Shown: piece by piece, positions 35,985 through 39,677 of the stretch | Layout: the number at the start of each line of letters is the position of its first letter | Position numbering within the stretch: the first letter of the stretch is position 1 | Source of the DNA: Candidatus Scalindua japonica | GTDB lineage: Bacteria; Planctomycetota; Brocadiia; Brocadiales; Scalinduaceae | Length of the DNA stretch: 64,000 nt | NCBI RefSeq assembly: GCF_002443295.1 | Contig: NZ_BAOS01000017.1 | Location: 1 to 64,000 of the forward strand | Direction: 5' to 3' | Notes under the pieces: generated by a model | Told to the model about the DNA's origin: nothing | Seen by the model: only the letters and a program-made list of their open reading frames with translations | The model's database searches: none | Translations under genes and position numbers: made by a program

Positions 35985-36845
35985 ATGGATCAAAAACACC
36001 AATCCGGAGGGATACTTAAGGCAACTTGGCGCATTATAAAGAAATTCCTTTCTACGCCCTCTTTTTTTGAAATTCCAAGGATTAATATCCTCCTCTTTAT
36101 TGCTACATTTTTCACCACTTATATAATGAATGGCCCAGGTTACGCTATTTCTATAATGGTAATCCTGTTTGCACACGAAATGGGACATTTTATTATGTGC
36201 AGAAAGTATAGCGTTGATGCGACATGGCCATATTTTCTTCCATTTCCCTCTTTTTTCGGAACTCTCGGCGCTGTTATCAAGATGAAGGGCCATATACCCA
36301 ACAAACGTGCTTTATTTGACATAGGAGTTGCAGGCCCGCTAGGAGGCCTGATATTTGCGATCCCAATCACTCTAATTGGGTTGCATCTCTCAGAAGTTCA
36401 ACCTATCCCAAAGGATGCAGCCAGTTATTTAGGCCTGGGAGAACCGATACTATTCTCATTTTTTTCAAAAATGATGTTAGGTGAGGTGTCGGAGGGATTT
36501 GATATTATTTTAAATCCGATTGCATTTGCGGGTTGGGCGGGTTTTTTTGTTACTGCACTTAATCTAATGCCAATTGGACAGCTTGACGGTGGTCATGTCA
36601 TTTACGCGCTATTGGGAAAACATAGTAAAATTGTATACAGAGTAGGCATAGGAATTTTTTGTCTTTTTGCCGTGTTTGTCTTTAGGGGCTGGATCCTTAT
36701 TGCCGTGCTGCTATTGTTATTCGGGTTTAAACATCCTCCACCGGCGGACCCATTTACACCACTCGATTTTAAGCGTAAATGTTTAGGTGTATTAATGTTG
36801 ATTATATTTTTGCTATGTTTCACTCCAATTCCTTTTAAGATATGA
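35985..36845 (+). CDS. Site-2 protease family (M50) membrane metalloprotease
   Basis: 286 residues with about six membrane helices. Zinc ligands are HEMGH (about residue 64) and the Asp of NLMPIGQLDGGH (about 193). It should cut membrane-embedded substrates in regulated intramembrane proteolysis or protein quality control. Its stop overlaps the mnmA start by four bases (ATGA), so the two are translationally coupled. No PDZ domain. Substrate unknown. Confidence 0.9.
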   Translation: MDQKHQSGGILKATWRIIKKFLSTPSFFEIPRINILLFIATFFTTYIMNGPGYAISIMVILFAHEMGHFIMCRKYSVDATWPYFLPFPSFFGTLGAVIKMKGHIPNKRALFDIGVAGPLGGLIFAIPITLIGLHLSEVQPIPKDAASYLGLGEPILFSFFSKMMLGEVSEGFDIILNPIAFAGWAGFFVTALNLMPIGQLDGGHVIYALLGKHSKIVYRVGIGIFCLFAVFVFRGWILIAVLLLLFGFKHPPPADPFTPLDFKRKCLGVLMLIIFLLCFTPIPFKI

Positions 36846-37915
36846 CAAAAAGAGTAGTAATTGCAATGAGCGGTGGCGTTGACAGCAGCGTCGCCGCTCA
36901 TTTTTTAATTGAGCAGGGGTATAACGTAATCGGTTTGTTTATGCGTCTTGGAAACACCGCAACTGCACCGGCACCTGACAGGAAAACAGCAACGTGCTGC
37001 AGCGCGGAAGATGCCAGAGACGCCAGAAATGTTGCGTCATTTCTCGATATTCCCTTTTATGTCCTTAACTTTGAAGATGAGTTTAATGGTATTATTGAAT
37101 ACTTTTGTGATGAGTATTTAAAAGGGAGGACTCCCAATCCCTGTATAATCTGCAATCAGGATCTCAAGTTTGGTAAATTACTCAGGTTTGCAGATTACCT
37201 TAAGGCCGATTATGTCGCTACCGGACACTTTGCAAGAATAGAGAGACTCAAAGAACGATATATTTTGAAAAAAGGAGTTGATGTTAATAAAGACCAGTCT
37301 TATGTTCTTTTCTCACTCGATCAGAATCAATTGTCCCGTGCCCTGTTTCCACTCGGAAATATGACTAAAGATGAGGTCCGCAAAAAGGCTTCTGAAGTAA
37401 ACCTGAAGACTAAAGATAAACCTGAGAGCCAGGATATCTGTTTTGTTACCGGTAAGAGCTACAGTGATTTGATTGTTGAAAAGGTAGGAGCAGAAATTGG
37501 TCCCGGTGAATTTAAAGATACAAATGATAACACACTGGGTACACATGATGGCATCCATAATTTTACCATTGGCCAGAGAAAAGGATTGGGAATTGCATTT
37601 GGTGAGCCAAGGTATGTAGTTGATATCGACCCCGCGCAGAACACAGTTACCGTTGGGGTTGCGGAAAAACTTTTTAAAGACACGTTTACGGTCGATAATG
37701 TAAACTGGATTTCAATTGAAAAGCCGGAAATGGAGTTGTCTGCTTCAGTAAAGATAAGATACAAACATGATGCAGCACCGGCAACAATTTATCCACTTGA
37801 ACAGAATCGTGTCAGAGTTAAGTTCAAGCAACCTGAACGGGCCATAACACCGGGACAGGCAGCCGTATTTTACGATGGCGATATTGTGATCGGAGGCGGA
37901 TGGATTGAACGTTAA
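36842..37915 (+). CDS. mnmA: tRNA-specific 2-thiouridylase MnmA
   Basis: 357 residues. PP-loop MSGGVDSSVAAH binds ATP; catalytic Cys residues lie in NPCIICNQDLKFG and SQDICFV. It inserts sulfur at uridine 34 of tRNA Lys, Glu and Gln, taking sulfur from a cysteine desulfurase relay. Coupled to the site-2 protease gene upstream by an ATGA overlap; the next gene starts 11 bases before its stop. Confidence 0.95.
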   Translation: MTKRVVIAMSGGVDSSVAAHFLIEQGYNVIGLFMRLGNTATAPAPDRKTATCCSAEDARDARNVASFLDIPFYVLNFEDEFNGIIEYFCDEYLKGRTPNPCIICNQDLKFGKLLRFADYLKADYVATGHFARIERLKERYILKKGVDVNKDQSYVLFSLDQNQLSRALFPLGNMTKDEVRKKASEVNLKTKDKPESQDICFVTGKSYSDLIVEKVGAEIGPGEFKDTNDNTLGTHDGIHNFTIGQRKGLGIAFGEPRYVVDIDPAQNTVTVGVAEKLFKDTFTVDNVNWISIEKPEMELSASVKIRYKHDAAPATIYPLEQNRVRVKFKQPERAITPGQAAVFYDGDIVIGGGWIER

Positions 37916-39677
37916 TATACCACTTATAAATATTTCAGCACTGGATGAAGTAACCAAAGTCCTCGGGAAGATTGCGGGCTATGTCTGGAGCATGCCGCTG
38001 GTCATCCTGCTTGTTGGTTCCGGTGTCTATTTCAGTATACGGCTTGTTTTCCCACAATTCAGAAGGATTGGCCACGGTATCGCAGTTGCCAGAGGCAAGT
38101 ACGATAACCCGGACGACCCGGGAGACATTACCCATTTCCAGGCGCTTTGCGCTGCCCTTTCTGCAACCGTAGGTGTTGGTAACATCGCCGGTGTAGCAAT
38201 CGCCTTACATGCCGGCGGACCGGGAGCCATTTTCTGGATGTGGATAGCCGCACTCTTCGGCATGGTCACCAAATTTGCAGAATGTACTTTAGCGCAGAAA
38301 TACAGAGTCATTCACAGTGATGGTTCTATAAGCGGCGGACCAATGTATTACATCGAGAAGGGAATGGGAAGCAGGTTCAAGTGGCTGGCCATACTCTTTG
38401 CCAGTTGTGGTCTCATCGCTACATTTGGCGGCGGTAATATGGTTCAATCTAATTCCATGGTCATCGCCTTTACCGATCAATTTGCTACTCAAAAGTTTTA
38501 CAATGACACTCCATTGTCCAGAATGAACAATGGAGAAGAGACCAGTAAGACAGATGACACAGCACTTGTTATAAAAACACATAATGGAAAAACAATCGAG
38601 ATTGATATCTCTCAGACTAAAACAGTTGGTGGTTTTTTAAATACCATAAATTACCATCCCGACAATATGTCTCATGCCGTCAAGGCAGAAATAGCCACAG
38701 ACAGAAACAGCATTGAGTTTACAGATTTAACGGATGGTAAGCGTGAGTTTACACTGGTATCTCCGGATGGAGGTAAACTCATAAAGGACCTTGGTTTTTT
38801 AAATAACGATGGCAGTATCAATAAGCTAAGTAAAAATAAAATATCTACAGTGATACCAGAAAGAATTATTTTGAAGGCAATTCTAGGTATAATAATCTCC
38901 GTAATCGTCGGCATGGTGATTATTGGTGGTATCAAGAGGATTGGAAAGGTTGCAAGCAGGCTTGTACCCGTTATGTCTTCAATATATGTCGCGGGAGCGC
39001 TTTTTATAATTTTCTGGAACTATGACAAGATAATAGACTCATTTTATCTGATCTTTAAGCACGCATTTACCCCAACTGCCGCAACCGGAGGCTTTGCCGG
39101 GGCAACTGTATTATACGCAATTACATGGGGAGTCAGAAGAGCTGCGTTCTCTAATGAAGCGGGGCTTGGAAGCGCTCCGATAGCCCACGCTGCTGCGAAG
39201 ACAAAAGAGCCAGTACGCGAAGGTCTTGTCGCAATGATGGGCCCGTTAATTGACACCATTGTTATCTGTACCATGACTGCGCTGGTAATCATTATAACTG
39301 GAGAGTGGACTGGTAAAGCAAATTCTTCGGTTTTAACAAAAAATGCCTTCAATGCGGGAATACCGTATTTCGGAGGTGTTATAGTCTCAATAGGGTTGAT
39401 ACTATTTGCAATATCTACAGCCATAAGCTGGTCGTATTATGGAAACCGTTGTGTAGAATACTTATTTGGCAGGAGAGCAATAATGCCTTACCGTTGGATT
39501 TACGTAATCGCTCTTTTTGTGGGTGCAGTGGTACGTTTGGAATTTGTCTGGAATTTTTCTGATATCACACTGGGTTTAATGTCACTTCCAAACCTCATTG
39601 CCATTATTGCCTTAAGCGGGGTAGTGATAGGTTTGACGAAAGACTACTTTTCACGGAAACATTTACGTACCAACTAA
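37905..39677 (+). CDS. Sodium:alanine/glycine symporter (AGCS) with a large inserted domain
   Basis: 590 residues. AGCS features include ATVGVGNIAGVA, GGPMYYIEKGMG and AAFSNEAGLGSAPIAHAAAKT; about 11 membrane helices. Between residues about 194 and 318, in the loop after FGGGNMVQSN, sits an extra domain of about 120 residues. It reads like a flagellin hook-IN motif (KTIEIDISQTKTVGGFLNTI, then IEFTDLTDGKREFTL and KLIKDLGF). Ordinary family members lack it. TTG start at 37905 is supported by GGAGG eight bases before and overlaps the mnmA end. It imports amino acid with Na+. Confidence 0.88.
   Translation: MNVNIPLINISALDEVTKVLGKIAGYVWSMPLVILLVGSGVYFSIRLVFPQFRRIGHGIAVARGKYDNPDDPGDITHFQALCAALSATVGVGNIAGVAIALHAGGPGAIFWMWIAALFGMVTKFAECTLAQKYRVIHSDGSISGGPMYYIEKGMGSRFKWLAILFASCGLIATFGGGNMVQSNSMVIAFTDQFATQKFYNDTPLSRMNNGEETSKTDDTALVIKTHNGKTIEIDISQTKTVGGFLNTINYHPDNMSHAVKAEIATDRNSIEFTDLTDGKREFTLVSPDGGKLIKDLGFLNNDGSINKLSKNKISTVIPERIILKAILGIIISVIVGMVIIGGIKRIGKVASRLVPVMSSIYVAGALFIIFWNYDKIIDSFYLIFKHAFTPTAATGGFAGATVLYAITWGVRRAAFSNEAGLGSAPIAHAAAKTKEPVREGLVAMMGPLIDTIVICTMTALVIIITGEWTGKANSSVLTKNAFNAGIPYFGGVIVSIGLILFAISTAISWSYYGNRCVEYLFGRRAIMPYRWIYVIALFVGAVVRLEFVWNFSDITLGLMSLPNLIAIIALSGVVIGLTKDYFSRKHLRTN

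Follow-up and report, generated by a model that had tools for sequence, protein, structure and literature searches.

A flagellar-type outer domain inserted in a putative sodium:alanine symporter of Scalindua-type anammox bacteria

The window analyzed here is a 64,000-nucleotide stretch from an anammox genome of the Candidatus Scalindua type (G000; 4.8 Mb). It encodes a symporter of the AGCS family whose two halves are separated by about 121 additional residues, and profile comparisons show these residues to be homologous to an outer-domain repeat, ~100 residues long, in the planctomycete flagellar proteins FlgL and FliD. The features concerned are as follows.

36842..37915, forward strand: mnmA (tRNA 2-thiouridylase), from the list of open reading frames and named from sequence motifs
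37905..39677, forward strand: AGCS-family sodium:alanine/glycine symporter gene with the insert (590 aa; matches to PF01235, TIGR00835 and 6cse)
37905..38495, forward strand: N-terminal part of the transporter body, comprising an extra helix and LeuT-core helices 1-3 (PF01235 profile positions 8-134; alignment with the empty-site orthologue L085)
38496..38858, forward strand: inserted FlgL/FliD-type outer domain, residues 198-318 (hhalign, reciprocal profile match and alignment)
38859..39674, forward strand: C-terminal part of the transporter body, from LeuT-core helix 4 onward (PF01235 profile positions 113-385)

By profile matches and homology to a solved structure, the frame at 37905-39677 is an AGCS sodium:alanine/glycine symporter of the LeuT fold. 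It scores 470.7 bits against PF01235 (cut-off 24 bits) and 503.8 bits against TIGR00835 (cut-off 272.65 bits), with both halves of each profile covered, and it matches the solved AgcS structure (6cse) over the LeuT core in two stretches (E = 1.2e-108). All three alignments are split in two by the insert. Going by its family, the symporter body should move alanine or glycine together with Na+. The start codon, as read from the sequence, is a TTG about 8 bases downstream of a GGAGG near 37891, and the beginning of the gene overlaps the end of mnmA by 11 bases. This mnmA-agcS neighborhood is conserved across the order, the insert-free orthologue included (tblastn of neighbors, 14 loci). No glycine riboswitch and no other RNA was found upstream of the transporter gene.

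The edges of the insert are set by that insert-free orthologue (L085, genome G335), which adjoins the same mnmA gene, is 67% identical over both halves and reads through the site as ...MTIAIVDHFAVQ-DRFLWRAVIGLFISF... in one open frame (junction IVDHFAVQ/DRFLWRAVIG). Because the site is empty there, the insert can be delimited to ~121 residues, 198-318, at about 38496-38858. The alignment with 6cse breaks at query residue 195 (chain residue 184) and restarts at query residue 326 (chain residue 188), giving ~120-130 extra residues. A preliminary description of this DNA, made from the letters alone, had already proposed an insert in a sodium:alanine symporter at 38490-38858, and both the split of the PF01235/TIGR00835 match by ~121 residues and the empty site bear this out, the coordinates being right to within two residues. 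It had also placed the insert after the third helix, which holds in LeuT-core counting and becomes the fourth if the extra N-terminal AGCS helix is included, and had taken the normal AGCS loop to be short, in agreement with the ~3 residues that AgcS has there. The flagellar-type domain takes up the first ~105 residues of the insert, and the remaining ~15 (303-318) form a linker specific to AGCS.

The insert interrupts the second extracellular loop, which joins LeuT-core helices 3 and 4 and is predicted from LeuT-fold topology and the positive-inside rule to face outside, as the preliminary description had supposed. Loops rich in lysine and arginine (FRRIGHGIAVARGK, KYRVIHSDG, GGIKRIGKVASR, GNRCVEYLFGRR and RKHLRTN) lie on the opposite side from the insert. 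In five other planctomycete AGCS proteins (L042, L044, L045, L046 and L048), the same outward loop is lengthened by 30-40 residues, probably helical (e.g., QLKTAAAAKDLEQIPVLQAQRTTLQNRVDGFERQF), and this loop seems to be a recurrent target of additions in Planctomycetota; the same five proteins have N-terminal extensions of ~220-260 residues. Elsewhere in the fold, AGCS protein L049 has ~115 extra residues (about 341-455) after the position of window residue 468, and many two-piece AGCS matches ending near query residue 470 suggest L049-like extra residues in families f6 and f19.

The kinship with flagellar proteins emerges from searches in both directions. Apart from AGCS genes, a single-sequence search of 294 planctomycete genomes with the window insert retrieved long proteins at E values of 1e-12 to 1e-4. 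Among 28 such host proteins (L052-L079), 25 carry FliD_N, FliD_C, Flagellin_N or Flagellin_C, and the other three (L053, L075 and L079) are pieces cut from longer frames; three FlgL-type hosts score above the FlgL cut-off of TIGR02550. In most flagellar hosts the insert profile finds several repeats, up to six in one protein and up to 125 bits summed. Alignment of the insert profile with a flagellar profile (hhalign) gave a probability of 99.8% and an E value of 8.4e-29 over 115 columns, figures that are somewhat favorable because the flagellar set had been selected by similarity to the insert. The reverse search provides a partly independent check, as the flagellar profile contained no insert: across 62 Brocadiales genomes the AGCS inserts rank best of all its matches, the window being hit at 38502-38804 (76 bits, E = 1.3e-20), and FliD-like frames in those genomes score below them (E = 1.5e-5 at best). 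Four FlgL-type proteins were read whole (L054, L058, L061 and L062), and in each the strongest match is to the final repeat ahead of the C-terminal helical region. The flagellar-type outer domain also has matches in very long open frames of 12316, 12094 and 6793 aa in G221, G236 and G247, and one fragment read from such very long planctomycete frames (L075) showed no flagellar Pfam domain.

The likeness to hook-IN motifs suggested in the preliminary description survives in a wider form. PF07196 is the central, 55-position part of the larger outer-domain repeat, and its core falls inside the insert-profile match in L056 (530-573 in 501-606), L068 (305-351 in 278-376) and L062 (499-539 in 466-578). 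PF07196 itself, with a gathering cut-off of 22.7 bits, failed to match any insert in a set of 11 when E values up to 10 were allowed, and in the window genome it matched only FliD. The resemblance thus reflects real homology, to the broader FlgL/FliD outer domain, while literal membership in the Pfam family fails. When the whole window protein was searched at E values up to 10, PF01235 was the sole match, and no D0/D1 coiled coil (Flagellin_N/C or FliD_N/C) was found. Matches of the insert to ribosomal S4e (2.8e-4) and pPIWI_RE_REase (3.3e-3), each seen in one of 11 inserts, were taken as chance.

Structure prediction adds little. AlphaFold returned a mean pLDDT of 32 for the full protein and 42 for the insert alone, the low confidence arising because the shallow alignments held only six or seven close relatives; a beta-beta-alpha order appears at the start of the insert model only, and Foldseek on this low-confidence model gave no match at E ≤ 0.001, only noise. 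Sequence searches of the PDB yielded weak ubiquitin-like matches for the insert profile (E of 0.05 or worse) and weak FliD and ubiquitin-like matches for the flagellar profile. A possible beta-grasp core is thus a hint and not evidence.

The insert-bearing gene occurs in 17 Brocadiales genomes from three families (Ca. Scalindua and relatives). Within the family of the window, 12 of 17 genomes have the gene and all 12 copies have the insert, one copy being cut by a contig end beyond it; outside this family, f94 contributes two insert-bearing genomes and one genus of family f3 a further three. The insertion point is identical across the three families. It is missing from the remaining 32 planctomycete AGCS proteins in the alignment, which come from this order and phylum, and from G335, and is thus rare among the AGCS proteins compared. 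A phylogeny of the transporter body unites L085 and the 16 insert-bearing rows in a single supported group (99/91), within which L085 sits beside the f3 genus, a placement that is not firm (91/78). Two is the smallest number of changes in insert presence on this tree, although one may have been enough. A gain followed by a loss would fit, as would a lone gain with L085 falling outside; separate gains at an identical residue are less probable. No donor was found within the window genome, where the insert had no other match even at E = 10; searches of viral contigs returned no relative and those of plasmids one insignificant match only.

Selection on the insert differs in degree from that on the remainder of the protein. 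Pairwise dN/dS is 0.09-0.30 for the insert versus 0.04-0.07 for the body, and the insert is under purifying selection. Compared with the near relative L010, identity is 73% in the insert and 90-98% in the body; in the farthest comparisons, with the other families, it falls to 31-40% for the insert versus 66-69% for the body. Within the flagellar-like part, 14 of 18 near-invariant positions (T202, L204, G228, V241, L245, I248, N249, N254, A261, D274, T276, G278, L296 and G297) share their commonest residue with the flagellar set, so that conservation concerns the fold and not some new active site. The tail at 303-318 (G303, N306, I313, T315 and P318) is conserved in the transporters only. We read this pattern as selection on the fold and on a fixed exit into helix 4, leaving the surface free to drift.

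Several carriers of the insert appear to have no flagellum. FlhA and FliD were both undetectable in G012, G013, G244 and G314 (90-95% complete) and in G315 (82%), and the inserts of these five genomes are intact. Although drafts might lack individual genes, it is unlikely that both markers were missed together in five genomes, and published work describes the loss of flagellar genes in oxygen-deficient-zone Scalindua (PMC11104535). It follows that the insert does not need a flagellum, and that a module kept in species without detectable flagella would have been put to some other use. In a separate one-contig Brocadiales genome, many stop codons and shifts of frame interrupt the FlhA match (G104:C1:618126-620040), apparently a flagellar export gene in decay, unlike the FliD match, which is still open.

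What might such a domain do on a transporter? We propose an otherwise ordinary Na+-coupled alanine/glycine symporter whose second extracellular loop would hold a complete domain descended from the hook-IN-bearing outer repeats of flagellar hook-associated proteins, serving as an accessory surface module on the outer face of the pump while the transport core stays unchanged. The domain may contact another copy of the symporter, another envelope protein or a surface layer, through contacts that would mimic those between flagellar outer domains and serve to position or stabilize the transporter. We regard an accessory surface-contact module as the best explanation, with about an even chance of being right. 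The contact role is modeled on the behavior of flagellar outer domains, since flagellin outer domains in general dimerize and take part in adhesion (PMC10256154), and it would be the most economical reading of the homology, position, lineage, selection and survival without detectable flagellar genes described above. Against it, the identity of the insert drops much faster than that of the body, unlike what would be seen for a fixed, specific interface, and one orthologue in the group (L085) lacks the insert, so that transport presumably does not need it. The fuller scenario, in which anammox bacteria recruited a flagellar outer domain as a working extracellular part that tethers or clusters an amino-acid pump at the cell envelope (or the anammoxosome membrane) and kept it after loss of the flagellum, is put forward tentatively and falls somewhat short of even odds.

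Alternatively, the domain may be a tolerated passenger that entered a permissive loop in the ancestral transporter a single time and, functionless itself, is kept only insofar as its folding spares the pump. The rapid evolution of the insert relative to the body, the coincidence of most of its conserved residues with those of the shared fold, its clean absence from L085 and the different additions that other planctomycetes carry in this loop would all suit a passenger. Yet the insert-bearing gene is free of frame breaks in 17 of 17 genomes across three families, small genomes included, and dN/dS lies well below 1, although fold constraint alone could explain part of both the retention and the low dN/dS. 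On balance we consider a passenger rather unlikely. A gating or regulatory lid over the outer vestibule, modulating access of alanine or Na+, for example in response to salt, appears more doubtful still. The insert lies between LeuT-core helices 3 and 4, close to the outer gate in the LeuT fold, and marine anammox bacteria are among the carriers, but the sequence drifts fast and has no conserved polar cluster beyond the fold positions. Docking of the symporter to hook or filament parts, which homology to FlgL/FliD and the presence of FliD, FlhA and a flagellin-like open reading frame in the window genome might invite, is very improbable given the five genomes with intact inserts and the reported loss of flagellar genes cited above.

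If the surface-contact module is the right reading, it would show flagellar outer domains to be portable contact modules and would give marine anammox bacteria a distinctive part that is probably exposed at the surface. The protein in any case offers a clear instance of a motility-appendage module lodged amid a polytopic transporter without breaking it, for which the insert-free orthologue at the same locus is a natural control. A literature search, conducted largely outside subscription journals, found no published account of this protein, its fusion or its inserted domain. Genes reported to distinguish Scalindua profunda from Kuenenia include those for oligopeptide transport and amino-acid metabolism, and the AGCS protein does not appear in the passages found (PMC3655542). 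New here are the purifying selection on the insert, the invariant residues that are largely those of the flagellar fold and the survival of the domain in five genomes lacking detectable FlhA and FliD.

Compared with known systems, the window protein matches the AGCS family, represented by AgcS of Methanococcus maripaludis (PDB 6cse/6csf), over its full length in two halves and retains the conserved segments GVGNIAG, GGPGAIFWMWIAALFG and FSNEAGLGSAPIA; where AgcS has ~3 residues from LeuT-core helix 3 to helix 4, the window protein has ~121 added. Large accessory masses in the second extracellular loop (EL2) are known in LeuT-fold transporters, such as the glycosylated EL2 of SLC6, and the insert resembles these as added mass in the equivalent outward loop, but the SLC6-type loops are not flagellar domains. 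With the FlgL/FliD outer-domain repeat it shares a common pattern over ~105 residues (T..LS..N.G, ...DG...., TV..lL..IN..P.N, A.i..D...i...D.T.G...f and.ELGF/I) at 25-40% identity in matches to the window sequence. It differs from that repeat in being a single copy within a membrane transporter, without the D0/D1 coiled coil or a PF07196 match, and in its additional AGCS-specific C-terminal linker.
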